Assembly (NCBI RefSeq): GCF_016765655.2 | Contig: NZ_CP086106.1 | Span: 2,166,501-2,230,500, forward strand | Length of the DNA stretch: 64,000 bases | Source of the DNA: Skermanella mucosa | GTDB lineage: Bacteria > Pseudomonadota > Alphaproteobacteria > Azospirillales > Azospirillaceae | Direction: 5' to 3' | Shown here: positions 8,520 to 62,312 of the stretch, piece after piece | Numbering within the stretch: the stretch's first letter is position 1 | Layout of the letters: each line of letters begins with the position of its first letter | The notes under the pieces: model-generated | The model's database searches: none | What the model saw: the letters and a program-made list of their open reading frames with translations, nothing else | What the model was told of the DNA's origin: nothing | Position numbers and translations under genes: made by a program

Positions 8520-10601
8520 TCATCCCGACCTGAGATACTTCACCGCCTGGTCCCGCTCGAACAGGTAGAGCAGCACGCGGAGCGCCTTGCCGCGCTCGGT
8601 CTGCAGCTCCGGGTCCCGCTCCAGGATCAAGCGGGCATCGTCGCGGGCGACCGCCAGCAGGTCGCCATGGACGGCGAGGTCGGCCATGCGGAATTCCGGC
8701 AGGCCGCTCTGCCGCGTGCCGAGCACCTCGCCGGCGCCGCGCAGGCGCAGGTCCTCCTCCGCGATCAGGAAACCGTCCTCGGTCTCCTTCATGATCGTCA
8801 GCCGCGCCTTGGAGGTCTGGCTGAGGGGGGTGTCGTAGAGCAGCAGGCAGGTCGAGGCGGCGGTGCCCCGGCCGATCCGTCCCCGGAGCTGGTGGAGCTG
8901 GGCGAGGCCGAACCGCTCGGCATGCTCGATCACCATGACGGAGGCCTCCGGCACGTTGACCCCGACCTCGATCACTGTCGTCGCCACCAGCACGTCCAGG
9001 TCGCCGCCCGCGAAGGCGGCCATGACGGCGTCCTTCTCAGTCGGCTTCATCTTGCCGTGGACCAGCCCGACCCGCTCGCCGATCTCCGCCCGCAGCAGCG
9101 CGTGGCGATCGGTCGCGGCGGCGAGGTCGACCAGCTCCGACTCCTCCACCAGCGGGCAGACCCAGTAGACCCGTGCGCCCTCGGCGATCTTGCGGCGGAC
9201 GCCGGCGATGACCTCCTCCAGCCGGTCGATCGGGATCGTGATGGTGGTGACCGGCTTGCGGCCGGGCGGCTTCTCGGTCAGGCGCGACACGTCCATGTCG
9301 CCATAGGCCGTCAAGGTCAGCGTCCGCGGGATCGGGGTCGCGGTCATCACCAGGACGTCGACGCCCCGGCCCTTGGACGAGAGCTGGAGCCGCTGGTGGA
9401 CGCCGAACCGGTGCTGCTCGTCGATCACCGCGACGGCGAGGTCCCGGAACGCGACGTCCTCCTGGAACAGGGCATGGGTGCCGACGATGATGTCGATCTC
9501 CCCGGCCGCCAGCCGCTCGTAGATCGCCGCACGGGCCTTGCCCTTGTCTCGCCCGGTCAGCACGCCGAGCCGCACCCCGGCGGCCTCCGCCAGCGGCCCC
9601 AGCGTCTCGAAATGCTGCCGGGCCAGGATCTCGGTCGGGGCCATCAGCGCCGCCTGGGCGCCCGCCTCGACGGCGTTGAGCATGGCGAGCAGCGCCACGA
9701 CGGTCTTGCCGCTGCCGACGTCGCCCTGGAGCAGGCGCAGCATGCGCCGGTCCGCCTGCATGTCGGCGTAGATCTCCTCCAGCGCCCCGGCCTGGGCGCC
9801 GGTCAGGGCGAATGGCAGGGCCGCGACCACCCTGGCCCGCAGCCGGCCGTCCCCCTTGACCGAGCGGCCCGACAGCTTGCGCTGGTGCTGGCGGATCAGG
9901 GCCAGCGCCAGCTGGTTGGACAGCAGCTCGTCGAAGGCGAGCCGGCAGCGCGGCGGCGCCAGGCCGGACAGGTCGGATTCGTCCTGAGGGTTGTGGACGG
10001 TGCCGAGGGCGGCACGCCACGACGGCCAGCCGCGCCGCGCCAGCCACGCGGGGTCCTGCCATTCCGGCAGTTCCCTGGCACTGGCCAGAGCGGAGGCCAT
10101 TGCCTTGCGCAGCACCTTGGAGGCGAGGCCGGCGGTCATGGGGTAGACCGGCTCGACCGGCTCGAACTCTCCCTTGGCGTCGGCCGGGACGATATGGTCC
10201 GGATGCGCCATCTGGGGCATGCCGTTGAACCACTCGACCTTGCCGCTGACGACGACCTGCTGCTCGAGCGGGAGCTGCTTCAGCAGCCACTCGCCGCGGG
10301 CATGGAAGAATACCAGGTCGATCTCCCCGCTGTCGTCGCGGCAGCGGACTTTGTAGGGGTGGCGCGGGTTCAGCGGGGCGGAATGGTGCTCCACCCGGAC
10401 CGTCAGCGTCGCGATGGCATTGTCCGGGGCGTTCGCCACGTCGGGCGCGAAGCGGCGGTCGATGATGCCGGTCGGCAGGTGCCACAGCAGGTCCGCCACA
10501 TGGGGGCCGACCAGCTTCTCGGTCAGCTTGCCGAGCTTCGGCCCGAGCCCCTTCAGCGTCGTGACGGGAGCGAACAGGGGGAACAGGATGTCTGGCCGCA
10601 A
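8520..10601 (-). CDS. recG: ATP-dependent DNA helicase RecG
   Basis: Superfamily 2 helicase that remodels stalled replication forks and branched recombination intermediates. Visible: the N-terminal wedge/OB region (VTTLKGLGPKLGKL; then VRVEHHSAPLNPRHPYKVR), Walker A GDVGSGKT near residue 294, Walker B/DEXH box VIDEQHRFGV, motif III TATPIPRT, and helicase C with ATTVIEVGVNVPEA and HQLRGRIGRG. The TRG motif region ends the protein. The 693-residue length fits the family. The stop lies 6 bp from the convergent ClC gene. Confidence 0.98.
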   Translation of the reverse strand: MRPDILFPLFAPVTTLKGLGPKLGKLTEKLVGPHVADLLWHLPTGIIDRRFAPDVANAPDNAIATLTVRVEHHSAPLNPRHPYKVRCRDDSGEIDLVFFHARGEWLLKQLPLEQQVVVSGKVEWFNGMPQMAHPDHIVPADAKGEFEPVEPVYPMTAGLASKVLRKAMASALASARELPEWQDPAWLARRGWPSWRAALGTVHNPQDESDLSGLAPPRCRLAFDELLSNQLALALIRQHQRKLSGRSVKGDGRLRARVVAALPFALTGAQAGALEEIYADMQADRRMLRLLQGDVGSGKTVVALLAMLNAVEAGAQAALMAPTEILARQHFETLGPLAEAAGVRLGVLTGRDKGKARAAIYERLAAGEIDIIVGTHALFQEDVAFRDLAVAVIDEQHRFGVHQRLQLSSKGRGVDVLVMTATPIPRTLTLTAYGDMDVSRLTEKPPGRKPVTTITIPIDRLEEVIAGVRRKIAEGARVYWVCPLVEESELVDLAAATDRHALLRAEIGERVGLVHGKMKPTEKDAVMAAFAGGDLDVLVATTVIEVGVNVPEASVMVIEHAERFGLAQLHQLRGRIGRGTAASTCLLLYDTPLSQTSKARLTIMKETEDGFLIAEEDLRLRGAGEVLGTRQSGLPEFRMADLAVHGDLLAVARDDARLILERDPELQTERGKALRVLLYLFERDQAVKYLRSG

Positions 10602-53450: not shown

Positions 53451-53526
<76 letters not shown>

Positions 53527-53532
53527 CTCAAA

Positions 53533-54077
53533 GTAGTGGCTTAGATCAAGGTTTTCCGGCGCCTACAGCAATCCGACAGGCACTGAAATCGTAGCAGGCT
53601 TCGTAGCAGAAGCCTAGCCTCTGGTGTGGTTAACGAGTTACACTGTATGGTGGCATTGACGGTGATGGATACGTTTTTCCGCCTCGGCGCCTATGTGTAT
53701 GGAAAAATTACAAGTCTTTCATGTATAATTCTTTTTTGGCAACCAATCTATGTACCGCTACCTGGTTGCTCGGCTCTGTGGTTTCCAAACCTGACAGGTC
53801 AATCTACACCGAGTGTGTGTACGGATGTCTGAGAGGGGGGCTTGGTCCCTGCCCCGGGGGAGGTAGCTGAAGGCCGAATTGCTTCATCGTGCGGTCTTTG
53901 CGGGCAGGTCAACCAGAGGCGGCTTAGAACCGCCGTCCGGCAGCCAGTTCCTTACGCCCATTGCTCCGCATCGGCGCGGTTGTACCTTCCTGGGCGGGAT
54001 GCTTCACCATGCCCTTGGGAGGCTTGCTGGGTGAGTCCCCAAGTTTTTCCGCTCCTTTCCCCTGCGGAGACCGAAAG
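53533..54077. other. Left end of the element, no convincing gene
   Basis: 545 bp without a gene I trust. It holds the arm-type site 53588-53608, an AT-rich block (53620-53790), and a GC-richer block (53840-54070) with a GGCGG/CCGCC hairpin at 53918-53934. Short frames exist on both strands (for example 53626-53832 plus and 53924-54166 minus) but have no ribosome binding site or recognisable content. Confidence 0.5.
53588..53608 (+). other. Putative integrase arm-type site, left
   Basis: 21 bp containing TCGTAGCA twice (ATCGTAGCAGG, TTCGTAGCA), repeated with one mismatch at 61719-61739 near the right end in the same orientation. Lies 55 bp inside the attL core. Paired tandem octamers flanking both cores fit arm-type integrase binding sites. 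Confidence 0.6.
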
Positions 54078-54647
54078 CTATCCTGTGGCCTTCTGGCGGG
54101 CTTCTGCAGCATCAAGGATGCGGTACACGCTCGCTCGTCCAATCCCAAGGCGCTTGGCGATTTCACCTGCCCCTAGCCCTCCGGCCTTAAGGGCGCGTAC
54201 CTGTACAGTGTCAATGCTGGCCTTCCGGCCCTTATAGACGCCTTCGGCCTTGGCTTTTGCGATCCCCTCTAACTGGCGCTCTTTCCTCAGGTTCGTCTCG
54301 AACTCCGCGAACACGCCTAGCATATCTAGGAACGCTTTACCGGCAGCCGTCCCGGTATCGATTGGTTGTTCCGTTGCCCTCAGGGTCACTCCCTTGGCCT
54401 TCAGTTCCCGAACGATATCCTGAAGGTCGCCGATGCTGCGGGCTAACCGGTCTACCCTGGTGACTACCAGCACGTCGTCAGACCGAAGGAACTGAAGCAG
54501 TGTGTCCAGCTCGGTCCGCCCTTGTCGGCTGGTGCCGCTCACCTTCTCCGATCGTACTACATCGCACCCAGCGGCTTTCAGCGCCGTGGTCTGGATGGAC
54601 AGGTCTTGGTCAATGGTGCTCACTCTGGCGTAGCCGTAGACGGTCAT
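54078..54647 (-). CDS. Serine recombinase (resolvase/invertase family)
   Basis: 189 residues, full length for a small resolvase/invertase. Catalytic Ser10 in YGYARVS; conserved Arg in LVVTRVDRLARSIGDLQ (R-x-x-R-L-x-R); long E helix (FLDMLGVFAEFETNLRKERQLEGIAKAKA); C-terminal HTH GLGAGEIAKRLGIGRASVYRIL. Would catalyse resolution or inversion at specific sites. The region just upstream has five GTCTC/GAGAC motifs that could be its res/crossover site. Confidence 0.95.
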   Translation of the reverse strand: MTVYGYARVSTIDQDLSIQTTALKAAGCDVVRSEKVSGTSRQGRTELDTLLQFLRSDDVLVVTRVDRLARSIGDLQDIVRELKAKGVTLRATEQPIDTGTAAGKAFLDMLGVFAEFETNLRKERQLEGIAKAKAEGVYKGRKASIDTVQVRALKAGGLGAGEIAKRLGIGRASVYRILDAAEARQKATG

Positions 54648-55046: not shown

Positions 55047-56174
55047 ATGAAAAAGATCCTTTTGGGGACCACCGCGATCGCCGCCGCCGCTTTGTATGCG
55101 CAGGCTGCACAGGCGCAGATCACCGTGTCCCTGGGCGGTTACACCGAGTTCTTCGGCGCCTACTACGATGACGATGCTCCCGGCCGTACCAGCCGCGAGT
55201 TCCAGCTCGAGACCGAGATCGTCGTCCGCGCCGACGGCAAGGCCGACAATGGCCTGCTCTACGGTGCCAAGGTCGAGCTGCAGAACTCCTCGGGTGCCAA
55301 CGCCGGCATCGTTACGGACGAAGCCTCGGTCTACCTCGGCGGCACCTGGGGCCGTATCGAGCTCGGTGACTTCGACGGCGCTGCCGACACGCTCGCCATC
55401 TACGCCCCGCTGATCGGTATCGAGCAGCTCGACGGCGACGCCTACGACTTCCTGGACACCGGCTCTACTTCGGTGCCCCGCTTCGGCGCCCAGCCTTTCT
55501 TCGGCACCATCAAGGCTCCGGACTCGGGTGACTCCACCAAGGTCATGTACCTGACCCCGCGGTTCGCCGGCATCCAGGCCGGCGTCAGCTACGCCACCCA
55601 GAACGGCAACGAGGGTCAGTCGGTCGTCGCCTTTAAGGAAGACACCACCTACCGGGACTTCTTCGAGTTCGGCGCCAACTACACCGGCACCTTCGCCGGC
55701 TTCTCGGTCGCCCTGGGCGCCACCGGTTCGACGGCCAGCGGCGAAGACGCCGTCGGCGCCACCGAGCTGGAAGACTTCTTCGCTTGGCAGGCCGGTGCCC
55801 AGGTCGGCTACGCCGGCTTCAAGTTCGGCGGCGGCTACATTGACGGCGACGACTTCGGCGCTACTGCCGGCACGAACGCCGGTGACGCAAGCGCTTGGCA
55901 CGTCGGCGCCAGCTACACGGCCGGTCCGTTCGCGGTCGGTATTAGCTATGCCGATGCCGAGGGTGCGAAGGGTGGCTTCACCACTTACACTCCGGACTAC
56001 AAGACCTACGGCGGTGGCTTCGCCTACACCCTGGCTCCGGGCTTCATCGTCCAGGCCGACCTGATGTTCGTGGATGAGGACGTCGTTCCCGTTACTGCTA
56101 CTGGTGTTGCTGCCGGACCTACGGTCAGCAATGAAGGTTACGTTGCCGTGCTGAGCACCCGCCTGAACTTCTAA
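55047..56174 (+). CDS. Outer-membrane porin (Rhodospirillales type)
   Basis: 375 residues. Signal peptide MKKILLGTTAIAAAALYAQAAQA, then a mature barrel start QITVSLGGYTEFFGAYYDDD. Alternating beta-strand pattern throughout (roughly 16 strands), acidic loops, and a C-terminal strand GYVAVLSTRLNF ending in Phe, the BAM recognition signal. Codon use is strongly GC-biased and host-like, unlike the regulator next door, so this cargo gene probably came from a related alphaproteobacterium. Could alter permeability or phage/antibiotic sensitivity (inference). Confidence 0.93.
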   Translation: MKKILLGTTAIAAAALYAQAAQAQITVSLGGYTEFFGAYYDDDAPGRTSREFQLETEIVVRADGKADNGLLYGAKVELQNSSGANAGIVTDEASVYLGGTWGRIELGDFDGAADTLAIYAPLIGIEQLDGDAYDFLDTGSTSVPRFGAQPFFGTIKAPDSGDSTKVMYLTPRFAGIQAGVSYATQNGNEGQSVVAFKEDTTYRDFFEFGANYTGTFAGFSVALGATGSTASGEDAVGATELEDFFAWQAGAQVGYAGFKFGGGYIDGDDFGATAGTNAGDASAWHVGASYTAGPFAVGISYADAEGAKGGFTTYTPDYKTYGGGFAYTLAPGFIVQADLMFVDEDVVPVTATGVAAGPTVSNEGYVAVLSTRLNF

Positions 56175-56304: not shown

Positions 56305-57090
56305 CTAGTCCTTCTGGCATTCGACGGGGCAGTAAAATGTAAATGTAGACACACCATCGAACGCTGAGAAGAGTTTCTGTAAAATATCAACGTTGCGGAC
56401 AAGTTTATTTGCAGCTCTGATATCTATACTGATGGTTGTTTGTTGACGTGAAAGCTTAACCGAAAATGTAGTATGCCGTTCGGATCTCATGTCTGTTTGG
56501 GAAACGATACAGTCGGGCAATTCAGGAAAGAATAAAGCAATAGCGTCCCGAATGTCTTGAAGGAACTCGTCACTTGGATCGTCGTTAAGATTAACGTGCC
56601 ACGTTGCTTCGTAAGGCGTCTCCATGCTTCTATTCAGCCCAAGAAAGCTTAAAACTTTCGACGCCAAGTCAAAGCTCAAAGCGCTCTCTCCGGAAAGCCA
56701 ACGTGATAACGCGGGTCTGTTAATGCCAAGGTCTTCAGCAACCTTTTTTATGCTCGAAGTTAGCTTTATCACCGATCGAATTTTTGTTCGCGTTCCTGGA
56801 TCATCAAGATCAATAGACGATTTGATGCCGTGCGATGCAATTATTTTAGCGACTTCGTCAAGCGATATATCCGTGTAAGTGCCGTTTGCTGTCATTCGTG
56901 CCAAGTGGGCTATCAGCACTGCCGATGGCCCCTCGCACTCTCGCTCACCTCTTGCCCATGCTTCAACCGTTCGCGGATTAACTCTGATCATTTGGGCCAC
57001 CCGATCAGCCCAGCCGCGACGCTGACCATCATTGATCAAGTATCCAAGTTCGCGTAGGAGTGCAGGGGGCAAAGTAAAGTTATTTGGCAT
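56305..57090 (-). CDS. Double helix-turn-helix regulator (AT-rich)
   Basis: 261 residues from ATG 57090 (MPNNFTLPPALLRELGYL). Two separate HTH regions: residues about 23-60 (ADRVAQMIRVNPRTVEAWAR) and an XRE-like one about 115-155 (KKVAEDLGINRPALSRWLSG). The C-terminal 100 residues are beta-rich and unrecognised. Base composition is clearly lower in GC than the host, pointing to foreign origin. Probably the element's own repressor/activator; targets unknown. A 25-codon longer start (57165) is His/Asn-rich and less likely. Confidence 0.8.
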   Translation of the reverse strand: MPNNFTLPPALLRELGYLINDGQRRGWADRVAQMIRVNPRTVEAWARGERECEGPSAVLIAHLARMTANGTYTDISLDEVAKIIASHGIKSSIDLDDPGTRTKIRSVIKLTSSIKKVAEDLGINRPALSRWLSGESALSFDLASKVLSFLGLNRSMETPYEATWHVNLNDDPSDEFLQDIRDAIALFFPELPDCIVSQTDMRSERHTTFSVKLSRQQTTISIDIRAANKLVRNVDILQKLFSAFDGVSTFTFYCPVECQKD

Positions 57091-57361
57091 GGATCTCGAA
57101 ACATTTCCTGTTTTTGAAGCGTTGTGATGGTGATTATGACTAATACCGAGATCGTCATGCACCAAAATCTGTGTGATCTCAGCGTGCTTACTCTGGTGAA
57201 GGACAAGAGCAAGGTTTGTGCTGCTCCACGGATCTGTAAAATCTACACTAGGACCGCAGGTCAGTTAGAAACATCGTGCAATGAGATGAGCTACATAGTG
57301 ATGCTCCGTGGCACCGATCACCGCGTCTTAAAGGTCGCTCATCGTTTTTGTTTCCACTGAC

Positions 57362-58316
57362 TGCCCGTTTTGAAAGTCATGGAGGTGGCAGGCGCTTTCG
57401 ATTTGGGTGGGCGAGGCGCTGTAGCATCATGCGAATGGCTGCGAGGGTGACCATGGCTTCGGAGACTTCTGGCAATTCTTCATAGTCTTTGGACAGGCGA
57501 CGCCATCGCCCGAACCAGCCGAATGTTCTTTCAACGATCCATCTGCGAGGGATGACGACGAAGCCAGTTGTCCCGGCGATCCGGCGGACGATGATCAGCG
57601 TCAGGCCGAGCAGGAAGCAGGCGAGCAGGACCGGCAACCGATTGTAGATGCTGTCGGCGAAGACGACCTGGAGCCAGCAGTAGAGGTGCTTAATCTTCTT
57701 CAGCAGATCCCAAGCGCTGTCGGCGTCCTGGATATCGGCAGCGTGAACGAGGACACCGAGCAGAAAGCCAGAGGTATCGACCCCGATATGGCGCTTGCGG
57801 CCCTTGACCTTCTTGGCGGCATCGTAGCCGCGAGAGCCCCTTTTTCCGTGGTTTTGACGGTCTGGGTGTCGATGATGACAGCCGTCGGGCTGGCCTCTCG
57901 ACCTTCGGTCTCGCGCAGAGTTATGACCAGATAGTGGCGGATGGTTTCCCACACACCACCCTCCAGGAAAGTTCGGAAATAGCCATAGACTGTTTGCCAC
58001 GGTGGAAAAGCGGGAGGCGGTGGCAGGTGGCGCCACTGACACCCGGTGCGCACGACATAGAACAGGCCATCCAGCATCTGCCGCATATCGGTGGTCCGGG
58101 GCCGACCGCCCGGCTTCGGCGGCGGGATGAACGGCTCGATCAGGCGGTACTGATCATCGCTCAAGGCCTGACCGGAACCATAATCCCCAACCAGCGCTCG
58201 ATCCTCGGGTGTCCACATTGCGGCCTCCAGAATGGGCATCTCCGCCCTTCCAAACAGCTATAGACGTGACCCTTCCCCCGCGCTCAATCGGACTGGCTGC
58301 ACTTTTAAAACGGGCA
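57362..58316 (-). mobile_element. IS5-family insertion sequence, 955 bp
   Basis: Terminal inverted repeats TGCCCGTTTTGAAAGT (57362-57377) and its complement at 58301-58316 match in 15 of 16 positions. They enclose a two-frame transposase of the IS5/IS427 type. No target-site duplication is evident in the flanking bases. It separates the regulator from the polymerase-like gene, so it may have inserted after the element was assembled. Confidence 0.88.
57377..58239 (-). CDS. IS5-family transposase, made by -1 frameshift (or inactivated)
   Basis: DDE transposase in two frames. The upstream frame (58239 to about 57840) has LSDDQYRLIEPFIPPPKPGGRP, TGCQWRHLP and VIIDTQTVKTTEKG. The downstream frame (from about 57840 to 57377) continues SRGYDAAKKVKGRKRHIGVDT, VFADSIYN and RRWIVERTFGWFGRWRRL. 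The switch is at an A5G4 run (TTTTT and CCCC at 57837-57845 on the plus strand), a plausible -1 slippery site as used by many IS5 relatives. Catalytic D-D-E residues are all present across the two parts. A length of about 287 residues fits the family. Confidence 0.9.
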
Positions 58317-58384: not shown

Positions 58385-59815
58385 ATGTCAAGGCAAAATG
58401 GAGCCGCTACGCAGAAGCCACATGAGAGACGATTTGACAGCCATCGGTGGGCTGAGTCGCCTGCTCTGAACAGCTTAGTTGATCAGGTGGCCAGCGCGAT
58501 TGAGGCGTTGGAAGAGCGAATAAGGAGGCGCACCGAGGCAGAGGCATTCCGGTTCAGGACCGCAATCCGCGTGCTCCTGCTGAACCTGTTCACAGTCTGG
58601 TCGATTGATCCTAAGACCAAACTGGGCATTTCGTTGGATGCCAATGCCTACAGTGGTGCCTCACGGTACCGCAATCCGCACCTGACCTACCGTCAGTTTG
58701 AGGCTGCGTTTCGAGGTTTGGAAGCCTTGGGGTTCCTCAAGGTCACCAACCCTGGATACCAGTTCAAGGCGACTGGCGAAGGGCAGGTGACTAGGGTTGT
58801 TGGCACCGAGAAGTTGGGACTGCTGCTTCAGGAGGAGACCCAACTTTCACCGATCGATGTGGTTCCGTCACCGACACGGGAGACGATCCTGCTTCGTGAT
58901 AACAGCGGAAGGATGGTGGAGTACGACGACACCGAAGATACGACCCGGATGCGTAACAATCTTGGTCGGATCAACCACGTTCTTCGGCAGAACTGGCCGG
59001 ACATCGAGATCAGTCGTGACGAATGGGTTAACCTGCAGGAGCGGCTTGAGGCCAAGGAGGATCGGGTGCCAATTGATCTTGGTAGCCGGTATTTGAGCCG
59101 CATCTTCAACAATAACTCATTCCTGATGGGCGGACGGTTCTATGGCGGTTGGTGGCAGAATGTGCCCAGTGACCTCCGTCCCTACATCCGGATCAATGGC
59201 AAACTAACGGTGGAGATCGACTACTCTTCCATCCACCCCCGGATGTTGTTTGCTATGGAAGGGCTGGAAGCACCGGATGATCCGTACGACATTGGGCTTG
59301 ATCCACGGTTCAGGGAGGTGGTCAAGCAGACCTTCAACGCCCTGATTAACGCCAGCACTAATCGCATCAATCCGGTAAGCAGCTTCGACGCTGACGCTAT
59401 CGGCATGTCATGGCCTGAGTTCAAGAAAGTAGTGCGACAAGCGTTTGCCCCGATTGCCAAGTATTTTGGTACGGGTGAAGGCATCCGCCTGCAAAGGGTA
59501 GATAGTGACATTCTGGAAAAGGTACTGGTCTATTTTGCCGAGCGGGGCATTCCATGCCTTCCTATCCATGACAGTGTCATCATGCACCATGGTTACACCG
59601 ATGAACTTGAGGCCGTGATGACCCAGGCATTCGAGGAAGTGACCGGAATTGCTGGCAAGGTTAAAGGGACGCTGAGCGTTCAGCGTGCCAGGGAGGCCAG
59701 AGGAAATCCGGACGGGGCATGGGACATCGAGGATGTGCTTCGGCCTGATCCGAGTTTTCGGGACTATGATGATCGTCTGGCCGCATGGCATCGGAAGGGA
59801 TGGGGCAAGGCGTAG
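58385..59815 (+). CDS. Orphan right-hand polymerase-like protein (PolA/T7-RNAP superfamily candidate)
   Basis: 476 residues. The C-terminal half shows the three palm/fingers motifs of family A-like polymerases in order. Motif A: Asp279 in VEIDYSSIHPRMLFAM. A motif-B-like R-x3-K: Arg310/Lys314 in FREVVKQTFNALINAS. Motif C: His395-Asp396 in IPCLPIHDSVIMHH, preceded by the usual helix DILEKVLVYFAERG. HDS rather than HDE in motif C recalls single-subunit RNA polymerases. No 3'-5' exonuclease domain is present. Residues 55-140 look like a winged-helix region (FRGLEALGFLKVTNPGYQFKATG). Likely a replication or primer/transcript-making enzyme of the element. Identification rests on motifs only; the frame is intact and starts at ATG 58385. 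Confidence 0.6.
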   Translation: MSRQNGAATQKPHERRFDSHRWAESPALNSLVDQVASAIEALEERIRRRTEAEAFRFRTAIRVLLLNLFTVWSIDPKTKLGISLDANAYSGASRYRNPHLTYRQFEAAFRGLEALGFLKVTNPGYQFKATGEGQVTRVVGTEKLGLLLQEETQLSPIDVVPSPTRETILLRDNSGRMVEYDDTEDTTRMRNNLGRINHVLRQNWPDIEISRDEWVNLQERLEAKEDRVPIDLGSRYLSRIFNNNSFLMGGRFYGGWWQNVPSDLRPYIRINGKLTVEIDYSSIHPRMLFAMEGLEAPDDPYDIGLDPRFREVVKQTFNALINASTNRINPVSSFDADAIGMSWPEFKKVVRQAFAPIAKYFGTGEGIRLQRVDSDILEKVLVYFAERGIPCLPIHDSVIMHHGYTDELEAVMTQAFEEVTGIAGKVKGTLSVQRAREARGNPDGAWDIEDVLRPDPSFRDYDDRLAAWHRKGWGKA

Positions 59816-59842: not shown

Positions 59843-59966
59843 CAAGGCCATGGATTAGGAGAGGGGGGAGGGGGTATTCCCCATTACCCATAACGGTTAA
59901 TTCTTAATCCATGGCCTTGAAGGGGAGGGGGAGGGAGGAGTTCCTCATTACCCATAACAGTTGATT
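59843..59966. repeat. G-rich repeat region with inverted and direct repeats
   Basis: Two tandem units each contain CCATGG, a GGGGGAGGG-type tract and CATTACCCATAAC(G/A)GTT. The 21-bp ends (59882-59902 and 59946-59966) match in 19 positions. A 15-bp perfect inverted repeat CAAGGCCATGGATTA pairs 59843-59857 with 59905-59919. It lies between the convergent polymerase-like and integrase genes. It might be an origin, a structured RNA, or a bidirectional terminator. Confidence 0.75.
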
Positions 59967-59980
59967 TGGTGACCGGGGTT

Positions 59981-61720
59981 CTACTCGGCCACGTGCAGAT
60001 GGCCCACGTCCAGATTGTCATACCGGACGCTTGCCATTGCCTCGGCCAATCGTGCCAGTGGGTAGCCTTGTCCATAGCGACGACTGACCGACGCACTGCT
60101 ATGCCCCATCAACGCGTCGAACACGGCCTCCTCGATACCAGCCGCCCGACAAGCGTCCTTGAAACCGTGCCGGAATGAGTGGAAGACTTTTCGGTTGTCC
60201 GTGATGCCGATGTCTCGGGCATACCGGCCCCACCACTTCGACCAGTTGCCGGTCAGATGGCCCTTGCAGTCCGGCTTCAGCTCGGAGAACACCCGATCGT
60301 GACCAGCTTGCTGTTGCTGATCCACATAGGCCAGGAACCCGCACCGGATCAGTTCGGGATGGAGGGGAACCTTCCTCCTGGACTCGTTGGTCTTGATTGT
60401 CTTGCCGTCGCCAACCGTGTTGATATCGATGTAGTGGATACCGTTATCCTGCCGCACATCGGCCACCTGAAGCTGTCCCAATTCGTTCAGCCGCGCTCCG
60501 GTGAAGGCGCCCAGCATCGGCAGCCAGAAGTCGGCATTACGGATGAGGGCAGGTCCGGGAACTGTAGAGCGTGCCAGCGACTTCCGGCCGCGATATACGG
60601 GTGAGTTAAAGATGGTACCCAAGTCCGCCGTGCTGTAGGGCAACCGTGTTTCGCTGCTGGTCTTGGACTCTCGAACCTTCATCCCGGAAAAGGGATTGGC
60701 CTCAAGGTAACCGTTCTGGACCGCCCAGCTGAGCAAGGTTCCTATCGATCCCAGGAGGGCATTAACGGACGATCCAGAAAGTCGCTCAAGATCGCTCCTG
60801 CCGTCAACCTGCGCCAGGACATCCCGAAGAGGGAGATCACGCAGAGGGCCGGGCAGGGCACGCGGCATCTTCAACATCGCAGCCTTGAACTCTCGCACAT
60901 GCGCTTTGGTGATGCTGTCGATCGGCATATCGCCGTGCAGGCTGTTGAACCGAGCTACGGCGGTATCGAACTTGGCGATGGTTTTGGCGGCGGGGCGACG
61001 CTCTGCCTTATACCTCTCGTAGATTTCCTGCAGTGTGGGCTGAGCTTCCGCCATGAAACCAGGGGCAGGCGTATTGCCAGCGATATTCAAGGCGACCACA
61101 GATCCAGCAGGGCAGGGAGCTACCACCGGGTCGGCCGGATCAGTGTCGAAAAGGCTATATGCCCGATCACGGGTTAGCTTCGCAATCTCCAGGTTGGCGC
61201 GAAGCGTGTAGTGGGCCAGCTTGCGCCACGCAGGGCTGTTCCGGTCAAGGACAATGCCGCTGGCGGTCAGGATAGCGTCCACGTCTTCGGCGACATGTCC
61301 CAGGCAATTCCGGTCCAGGTCATCCTGCGCGATGCCGACAACCTCATCATAGGTGTCCAACATCGCATCGTGCGGGTCCAAACGGTAATGGATGTCGGGA
61401 TCATGGGCCGGTATGCGCTGGCGCAGGCGCATGTCCTCAGCTTCGGCCATTGCTCGGTCGAAATGCTGGCGAGCAAGGTTCTTCACGTCGGCTTCGGTCA
61501 TCATCGCATTCGCTCTGGTTATGGCGAATAACCTAAGGCCGGCCGCTTTCATTATGGTTAATGAACGATGAGCTTCGGTTCGCCGGCTTGTCCGAAGGCT
61601 GCGGGTAATTTCCCGTCGACCGAAGCGGGGTACTAGATCGGATGGAACGAATAGGCGTACATAGAAGACGCCATTGGACCGGAGGTGCAGGTTTGCATTC
61701 GGCATGAAGGGGGCAGCCAT
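59981..61720 (-). CDS. int: Tyrosine-type site-specific integrase
   Basis: 579 residues from ATG 61720 (MAAPFMPNANLHLRSNGVFYVRL). Large integrase: N-terminal arm-binding-type domain, a SAM-like core-binding domain (AKTIAKFDTAVARFNSLHGD), and a catalytic domain with Arg in FTGARLNELGQL, His-x-x-Arg in HSFRHGFKD, His in MGHSS, and the Tyr nucleophile in SVSRRYGQGY. It should join attP with the tRNA-Glu attB. The frame extends past attR, which cannot be native to the free element, so starts beyond 61838 are excluded. The chosen start lies exactly on the right arm-type repeat, suggesting autoregulation. Confidence 0.95.
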   Translation of the reverse strand: MAAPFMPNANLHLRSNGVFYVRLFVPSDLVPRFGRREITRSLRTSRRTEAHRSLTIMKAAGLRLFAITRANAMMTEADVKNLARQHFDRAMAEAEDMRLRQRIPAHDPDIHYRLDPHDAMLDTYDEVVGIAQDDLDRNCLGHVAEDVDAILTASGIVLDRNSPAWRKLAHYTLRANLEIAKLTRDRAYSLFDTDPADPVVAPCPAGSVVALNIAGNTPAPGFMAEAQPTLQEIYERYKAERRPAAKTIAKFDTAVARFNSLHGDMPIDSITKAHVREFKAAMLKMPRALPGPLRDLPLRDVLAQVDGRSDLERLSGSSVNALLGSIGTLLSWAVQNGYLEANPFSGMKVRESKTSSETRLPYSTADLGTIFNSPVYRGRKSLARSTVPGPALIRNADFWLPMLGAFTGARLNELGQLQVADVRQDNGIHYIDINTVGDGKTIKTNESRRKVPLHPELIRCGFLAYVDQQQQAGHDRVFSELKPDCKGHLTGNWSKWWGRYARDIGITDNRKVFHSFRHGFKDACRAAGIEEAVFDALMGHSSASVSRRYGQGYPLARLAEAMASVRYDNLDVGHLHVAE

Positions 61721-61739
61721 CGTAGCAGGTTTCGTAGCA
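61719..61739 (+). other. Putative integrase arm-type site, right
   Basis: Same 21-bp motif as the left site (ATCGTAGCAGG, TTCGTAGCA) with one change, 76 bp inside the attR core and overlapping the integrase start codon. Confidence 0.6.
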
Positions 61740-61815
61740 ATGGCTTGTCGAACCGCTGACTTTGGCGACCAAAGCCCTTGATCTAGAAGCTTTCCGGCGA
61801 AGTTGGCGTCTCCCC

Positions 61816-61838
61816 TCCCGTAGGGGACGCCACTCAAA
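61816..61838 (+). other. attR core
   Basis: Right copy of the 23-bp tRNA-Glu 3' end core, followed by the GCCACT/AGTGGC hairpin (61829-61846), presumably the original downstream sequence of the tRNA gene. Confidence 0.9.
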
Positions 61839-62312
61839 ACAGTGGCTTGCCTGGAGTTTTTCCTGACAATCCGCACTATGGTTCACTGGCCGCCGAGCTT
61901 CGGGAAGTTACCTTAGCGCGACCGAAGGTTTGGCGCGTCGCGGCGGCTGGAGTGGCACGAAGGCCGATTACTTGGAAAGCAAGTAATCGGGCGGGCGATC
62001 ATCACGCAACATCCGGACATTTGCGCCATCCCGACATAGGCGGACAATGCCGGCTCGCGCTTCAATATGGATGCCAATTGGTCAGCCAGGGCCTTCGAGT
62101 ATCTTGATCATGCCGACGGGACCGGATTCCTCGACCCCCTCGACGTTCAAGGAAGTCGTTTCGGCCAGCTCCTTCAAGTCACCTATAGGATCGGGACTCT
62201 TCCGCGCGCGGCGCGCGGCGATGAACCTGTAACTTCCTTCAGGAAGAGGTTGGCGGCGGCATGGTCGATGCCGCCGCCCCTCATGCCACCCGTCACGGCG
62301 GTGATGGGCCGG
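61839..62312. other. Intergenic region right of the element
   Basis: 474 bp with no gene I can support. Apart from the att hairpin at its left end and the hairpin at 62252-62278, I see a CGCGCGCGGCGCGCGG stretch near 62205-62220 and nothing else structured. Short plus-strand frames (61847-62107, 62047-62232) lack ribosome binding sites. Confidence 0.5.
62252..62278 (-). terminator. Hairpin after the nuclease gene
   Basis: 11-bp perfect stem GGCGGCGGCAT/ATGCCGCCGCC with a 5-nt loop, 35 bp past the nuclease stop. No strong U tract. Confidence 0.5.

Follow-up and report, generated by a model that had tools for sequence, protein, structure and literature searches.

What kind of polymerase does a small integrating element bring into a bacterial genome? 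Minimal family A polymerases have been described in phages as divPolA2 and in elements as TV-Pol. In the parts of PMC11348598 available to us, divPolA2 is described in phages, the protein AUR84708 is modelled, repair is offered as one option for its role, and no homologous thumb is found; TV-Pol is cited there for small viruses only. TV-Pol was introduced by Iyer et al. (2008, PMC2579912), and CcPol, which has been placed in it, primes DNA synthesis only with its partner MP and keeps the counterparts of E710 and F762; besides CcPol, no TV-Pol was known in 2020 to have been studied biochemically (PMC7581432, likewise in the parts available), and we met none among the later papers surveyed. Here we analyze a polymerase gene in a 64,000-nucleotide stretch of the Skermanella mucosa genome (NZ_CP086106.1, positions 2,166,501 to 2,230,500; hereafter the window). 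The gene lies, with a tyrosine integrase gene, on an 8.3-kb element integrated at a tRNA-Glu gene (Table 1), and computation shows its predicted product to be a compact family A polymerase, modelled as a palm and fingers that lack an exonuclease and follow an N-terminal domain resembling a winged helix. Coordinates are positions within the window, and residue numbers refer to the window protein unless another enzyme is named.

Kinship with published polymerase families

By sequence comparison, the window polymerase is a member of the divPolA2 family published in 2024; among the papers searched, that name appears in a preprint and in the article. BLASTP aligns it with the divPolA2 representative AUR84708 at 24% over 421 aa (E 3e-14, a single comparison; tblastn E 6e-7), and AUR84708, which is NVP1063O_041 of MG592441.1, is itself among our phage matches. 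Both have a palm core, a separate N-terminal domain and no exonuclease, and both are additional to a regular polymerase; the genome that harbors the window element also encodes PolA. They differ in that AUR84708 is atypical, with E/Y/E at the three pocket positions considered below and F-D-E where the window protein has H-D-S. Furthermore, the available parts of PMC11348598 cover phages and liken the divPolA2 N-terminal domain to nothing known, whereas the window gene is on an integrated element and its relatives give weak winged-helix matches.

The window polymerase also falls very probably within TV-Pol. The features set out in PMC2579912 recur here: a minimal family A core with two metal-binding Asp residues and an RRM-like palm, a hairpin Arg before the palm, a fingers Asp with an RxxxK motif, and the N-terminal extra domain of a TV-Pol subset. 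The taxa overlap, and the lambda-type integrase, resolvase and transposase found near TV-Pol genes are all three present on the window element. The D5 helicase that also belongs to TV-Pol company was not seen there. Ma-LMM01 gp030, which we infer from its neighboring transposase and its motifs to be the TV-Pol listed in PMC2579912, matches the family profile at E 2.2e-4 and ranks fourth of 90 proteins. The sequence-only reading of this DNA had called the protein an orphan, perhaps of an undescribed clade. Relatives occur at 30 genome loci (24 being alphaproteobacterial according to their titles), at 31 IMG/VR loci, in 234 of 50,697 phage records and in 4 of 72,556 plasmids, and with these counts and the two published families both descriptions have to be given up.

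Three further systems help to place the locus. The CcPol-MP pair of staphylococcal cassette chromosome (SCC) elements likewise includes an exonuclease-less family A polymerase on an integrating element (PMC7581432 and PMC10061031, in the parts available); it differs in having a single-stranded DNA-binding (SSB) partner and a helicase and in keeping the E710 and F762 counterparts, where the window protein has H284 and N318. Pipolins combine a polymerase, a tyrosine recombinase and attachment (att) repeats at a tRNA gene, and restriction-modification genes lie near our relatives as well, but the pipolin enzyme, piPolB, belongs to family B (PMC7385651, in the parts available) and the window polymerase to family A. 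Finally, T7 RNA polymerase and DNA polymerase I (Pol I) share with the window protein motifs A, B and C in the same order, the former also HDS and the latter GR..QN(I/V)P, whereas the window protein is much shorter and has no exonuclease.

Fold, motifs and selection pocket

The gene is an intact open frame that starts with ATG and runs for 476 codons, giving a protein of 476 aa. No Pfam family reaches its cut-off and no NCBIfam family matches at E 0.1; neither collection reveals an exonuclease domain, and glycosyl hydrolase 98 and other weak Pfam matches, all under cut-offs, were rejected. PF00476 (DNA polymerase I) does not match the window protein at E 1, nor is it among the 20 Pfam families matched at E 0.1 by any of the 54 members of alignment A2, which excludes four broken or cut rows (L016, L023, L027, L031) and five copies or near-copies (L032, L053, L061, L064, L065). 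PHROG 4756, a family of unknown function, matches the window protein at E 4.6e-48 and all 54 members of A2.

AlphaFold2 models built on A2 are confident for the whole protein (pLDDT 91.0, pTM 0.90) and for the core alone (pLDDT 93.8, pTM 0.91). In the model, Asp279 lies in strand 275-280 and His395-Asp396 in the turn joining strands 392-394 and 397-401, a predicted placement as expected for a PolA palm; R251 lies within strand 249-254. TV-Pol is described with a thumb of two antiparallel helices; in the window protein, helices 184-202 and 211-223 come before the hairpin. At E 0.001 or better, a Foldseek search of the PDB returned 81 matches with the whole protein as query and 97 with the core. 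The best 50 of each are without exception DNA polymerases of family A, with lowest E values of 2.1e-5 and 1.5e-5, respectively. TM-scores relative to query length stay modest, at 0.23-0.33 for the whole protein and 0.42-0.54 for the core, which indicates a distant relative of these enzymes. Among viral structure models, eleven matches are set apart (E 6.8e-16 or better, TM 0.46-0.65); the three that are named come from Aeromonas and Rheinheimera phages, and one is called a DNA polymerase. The models below them are mostly PolA-type or unnamed; rank 32 is a phage RNA polymerase and rank 49 a Zamilon virophage replication protein. The palm and fingers without exonuclease that had been proposed from the letters alone are thus borne out by prediction.

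The single-pair hhalign alignment of A2 with PolA is weak but covers 199 columns and spans the motifs in order, compared with 26-51 columns for four reversed controls. When the core profile was ranked against the 90 proteins, family members from phages KASIA, M1 and ICP1 took ranks 1-3, gp030 was followed by the same protein re-called (rank 5), and the KASIA RNA polymerase (879 aa, PF00940), E. coli PolA, T7 RNA polymerase and T7 DNA polymerase stood at ranks 6, 7, 14 and 26, respectively. ICP1 gp100 (L249:11011-12684), annotated as hypothetical, is a member of the family; a literature search for it brought up a single listing, on a Caulobacter phage.

The motif residues read from the sequence, D279 in the motif A stretch VEIDYSSIHPRM, R310-x3-K314 in motif B and D396 in the HDSV of motif C, are ordered as claimed, and the catalytic Asp residues are kept in the homologues. 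Conservation was counted in 87 aligned relatives, a set that leaves out the rows omitted from A2, frames below 380 aa, duplicates, L097 and L098, with columns taken from one MAFFT alignment: D279 is present in 87 rows, D396 in 86 (the remaining row is cut off), K314 in 84, hairpin R251 in 83, R310 in 81 and fingers D299 in 75. Within A2, D279, K314, G250, R265 and E277 are invariant and H395-D396 is found in 53 of 54 rows, the last again being cut off. Among the 87 rows, three members encoded in small genomes of about 1.4 Mb (L084-L086) keep both Asp residues and have neither the motif B Lys nor the motif C His, and two of the three also miss the motif B Arg; therefore not every family member need be active. 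That the window protein is an inactive remnant was rejected, its motif residues being intact.

Which sugar would such an active site select? Y766 and E883 of Pol I have a role in ribose discrimination, and G542 and Y639 of T7 RNA polymerase select ribose. The positions aligned with E. coli Pol I E710, Y766 and E883 read H/N/S in 57 of 87 rows, and E/Y/E in AUR84708 alone (1 of 87), which is also the one row with Glu at the E710 position. The window protein has H284 at the E710 position, N318 at the F762 position and N322 at the Y766 position. The positions of T7 RNA polymerase G542 and Y639 hold Gly in none and Tyr in two of the 87 rows; in the window protein they are His and Asn. As a set, the aligned residues at E710/Y766/E883 fit neither Pol I nor T7 RNA polymerase.

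The N-terminal domain looks, weakly, like a winged helix, the fold suggested by the sequence-only reading. The best match of its profile (A6, 52 rows, residues 1-158) is PadR-type 1xma_A at E 0.0013. The winged-helix regulators AspA, PadR, SlyA and AdcR follow at E 0.23-0.91, interspersed with uS17, P-II and Top7. MarR, TrmB, PadR and CvfB_WH are among 19 weak Pfam families, each matched by one member (E 0.026-0.095). At another locus (L014:4035-4892), a 286-aa frame matches only the N-terminal part of the family, with a polymerase gene nearby that is cut by the contig end.

The tRNA-Glu element and the settings of its relatives

The last 17 bases of the tRNA-Glu gene and six more are repeated without mismatch 8,306 bp away, and this repeat, with the adjoining tyrosine integrase, upholds the claim of a small integrative element. 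The DNA shared with three congeners runs up to 53526 in two of them and up to 53530 in the third. No empty integration site was recognized, since in none of the three is the congener's own tRNA followed by DNA that matches the right flank of the window. In one congener (L119; 3665 and 9199-9265), a second partial tRNA-Glu end stands about 5.5 kb past the tRNA, and the site seems to hold another element. The integrase gene is placed at the element end opposite the tRNA and converges on the polymerase gene with 165 bp between them; its open reading frame (ORF) overlaps attR, and the true start is probably inside the ORF. The IS5-type insertion, of which a 100% identical copy exists elsewhere in the genome, ends 68 bp 5' of the polymerase ATG and may have removed or replaced the promoter. 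At the DNA level the region matches no phage. The gene has a sporadic distribution: one genome of five in the genus, 3 of 82 in the family and 22 of 289 in the class carry it, its own genome included each time.

Table 1. Features of the tRNA-Glu element and of its polymerase gene
Feature	Position	Strand	Evidence or remark
tRNA-Glu(ttc), integration site	53451..53526	+	
attL core, 23-bp exact direct repeat	53510..53532	+	
Possible integrase arm site, 21 bp	53588..53608	+	second copy, 95%, 61719..61739 +
Serine resolvase	54078..54647	-	PF00239 1.4e-39
Porin gene between att repeats, probably cargo	55047..56174	+	PF13609 7.8e-44
Helix-turn-helix (HTH) protein, 286 aa, transcribed away from polymerase	56305..57165	-	PF01381 8.8e-10
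IS5-type insertion between HTH and polymerase genes	57362..58316	-	PF13340; 16-nt end repeats, 94%
Polymerase gene	58385..59815	+	476 aa; PHROG 4756; divPolA2 by sequence, very probably TV-Pol type
N-terminal domain, residues 1-158, winged-helix-like (weakly)	58385..58858	+	profile A6 matches; helix/strand order of model
Predicted palm/fingers core, residues 163-438	58871..59698	+	AlphaFold2 pLDDT 93.8; PDB matches listed are family A DNA polymerases
GGRFYGGWWQN hairpin with R251	59129..59161	+	counterpart of PolA TGRLSS..QNIP
Motif A, EIDYSSIHPR	59213..59242	+	D279; H284 at PolA E710 position
Motif B, R310-x3-K314 ... N322	59312..59350	+	N322 at PolA Y766 position
Motif C, H395-D396-S397 (HDSV)	59567..59575	+	
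18-nt inverted repeat (94%) with two direct repeats of 46 nt (80%), between polymerase and integrase	59843..59966	.	
Tyrosine integrase with DUF6538 N-terminal domain	59981..61876	-	PF00589 9.3e-10, PF20172 6.1e-15
attR core, identical 23 bp	61816..61838	+	

Similar settings recur among the relatives, also in other genera, and several of their loci show the recurrence beside tyrosine integrases that the sequence-only reading had named as a check. A tRNA gene is present at 9 of 19 loci scanned (Val, Met, Leu at two, Phe at two, Pro, Gly and Thr). In seven of these (L003, L007, L009, L016, L019, L023, L026) an integrase frame starts 47-67 bp from the tRNA, that of L023 being recognized by Pfam in its DUF6538 part only; in L017 about 105 bp separate the tRNA from the end of a weak integrase match, and in L002 the tRNA overlaps the integrase frame. 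Four of the nine (L002, L003, L007, L023) have an exact far-side repeat of the tRNA end, 17-21 nt long, which delimits elements of about 5.5-10.6 kb; in the remaining five, some of them cut, no repeat of 12 nt or more was present. Neighbors were collected up to 5 kb away from the 30 genome loci, of which many are cut by contig ends, and 167 of the 169 ORFs picked were scanned. At least 12 of these 167 proteins match phage integrase, at least seven DUF6538 and at least three resolvase, and restriction-modification is among the commonest of the families listed; the tallies use the first 25 families listed for each, so that a lone helicase could escape, and at least one resolvase (L002:7511-8065) was passed over by the greedy picking of ORFs. 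No common partner gene was found near the polymerase among the loci compared.

A different carrier is seen in contig G105:C14 (L257), where two near-identical units, one of 8,841 and one of 8,949 bp, and an incomplete third make up the first 20,000 of 21,261 bases. This unit of about 8.9 kb encodes RepA, a ParA-type ATPase, a resolvase, a D12 methylase and a family member of 597 aa that has an additional helix-turn-helix domain (HTH_3), and is probably a small plasmid assembled as a multimer; at the DNA level it matches no plasmid. In a tree of the core, built from 86 rows and rooted at the midpoint, the window protein belongs to a clade of 31 rows (support 0.83), all from genomes or IMG/VR and none from an isolate phage. 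The enclosing clade of 45 rows (support 0.95) includes one of 10 phage rows; some inner supports are low, at 0.45-0.50.

Several features of these elements are recorded here in their own right. About 66 kb upstream, the genome has a 90% copy of the porin gene of the window element, and the gene on the element is apparently captured chromosomal cargo. The inverted repeat and the direct repeats, rich in G runs, between the polymerase and integrase genes could be a terminator or an origin. In L003 (7186-11006), a HATPase-domain protein stands beside a calcineurin-like phosphoesterase as element cargo, perhaps for defence.

Possible roles of the polymerase

What would such an enzyme do for its element? 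We infer, as the sequence-only reading did, an initiator-polymerase role, and tentatively favor, at a little short of an even chance, an accessory polymerase with which the element initiates or primes its copying. The integrase would excise the element as a circle, the N-terminal domain would recruit the polymerase to element DNA, and the core would make or extend the first strand, starting from a short primer or with no conventional primer at all; because of the fold, two-metal chemistry at D279 and D396 would be expected, and host enzymes would complete the copying. The stretch from R251 to D279, which is 28 residues in the window protein, 27-35 in the 54 rows and 37 in E. coli PolA, would correspond to the last thumb helix, whose shortening has been linked with de novo initiation (PMC10061031, in the parts available). 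The fold with its catalytic residues, the top ranks of family members in the profile comparison, the company of integrases, resolvases and tRNA genes, and the priming by CcPol together with MP speak for this reading. The role would be that of an accessory and not of a complete replisome, since no helicase was recognized in the six larger genes of the element, to which the search was confined. More broadly, it is possible rather than probable that small elements integrating at tRNA genes, as well as small plasmids, encode a family A prim-pol of their own and so parallel the pipolins with a PolA-type enzyme. With a pocket that is neither DNA-type nor T7 RNA-type, such an enzyme could start strands itself and have a relaxed or unusual choice of sugar.

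A number of observations weigh against a priming role. The activity itself is predicted from the protein, and because the ribose-discriminating residues of Pol I are missing, DNA synthesis is not assured. Besides the missing helicase, no adjacent gene for an SSB partner with an oligonucleotide-binding (OB) fold was seen, the polymerase gene lying between the IS5-type element (68 bp) and the integrase gene (165 bp). On the ~8.9-kb unit, RepA would be expected to be the initiator. Of the nine phage records with a relative, eight contain a separate match to PolA (E 0.001 or better), seven of them above the Pfam cut-off; the ninth, a barbavirus, lacks a PolA match (PolB was not searched), and barbaviruses have PolB (PMC11348598, in the parts available). 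A replicase role in phages is therefore unlikely. Six of the nine phages also encode a Toprim_2 protein, maybe a primase, and KASIA has an annotated primase, so that priming is unlikely to be the sole use there. Finally, single-pair hhalign E values against PolA are weak (0.03-0.05; 0.048 for A2), and a search of PDB sequences with profiles A1 and A5 brought up no polymerase. Single-pair hhalign is insensitive here, because the link between PolA and T7 RNA polymerase also fails, with a score worse than that of A2 against PolA.

Could the protein instead be a single-subunit RNA polymerase, its N-terminal domain finding promoters and its core transcribing element or phage genes? The HDS of motif C is shared with T7 RNA polymerase, but the ribose-selecting residues of that enzyme are almost never present at the aligned positions, the best 50 PDB matches in each search are DNA polymerases, one PHROG DNA polymerase model matches a member of A2 (0.0031), and phage KASIA already encodes an RNA polymerase four genes upstream of its family member; we consider this role unlikely. 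A repair or gap-filling polymerase that completes junctions left by integration, excision or damage would suit the coexistence of relatives with replicative polymerases in phages and the lack of a fixed replication partner among the neighbors scanned, and repair is one option suggested in the available parts of PMC11348598. It leaves unexplained the winged-helix-like domain, the shortened R251-D279 stretch and the recurrence on small integrating elements, and we regard it as quite unlikely. That the gene is a passenger with no present role in its host genome is improbable: the insertion just before the ATG and the presence of the gene in a single genome of the genus would fit, but the frame is full-length and every motif residue is intact.

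The window protein links the TV-Pol proteins of elements with the divPolA2 proteins of phages, two literatures that are not joined in the available parts of PMC11348598. This analysis adds the carriers, namely an 8.3-kb tRNA-Glu element with 23-bp att repeats, together with relatives near integrases at other tRNA genes and on the ~8.9-kb RepA/ParA unit, as well as the winged-helix-like look of the N-terminal part and the mostly H/N/S pocket positions. In 2008, and once more in 2024, sequence data had led to the prediction of this family. Because the element is small and its polymerase gene is intact, whether such a protein is a primase, a DNA polymerase or an RNA polymerase becomes a simple bench test.
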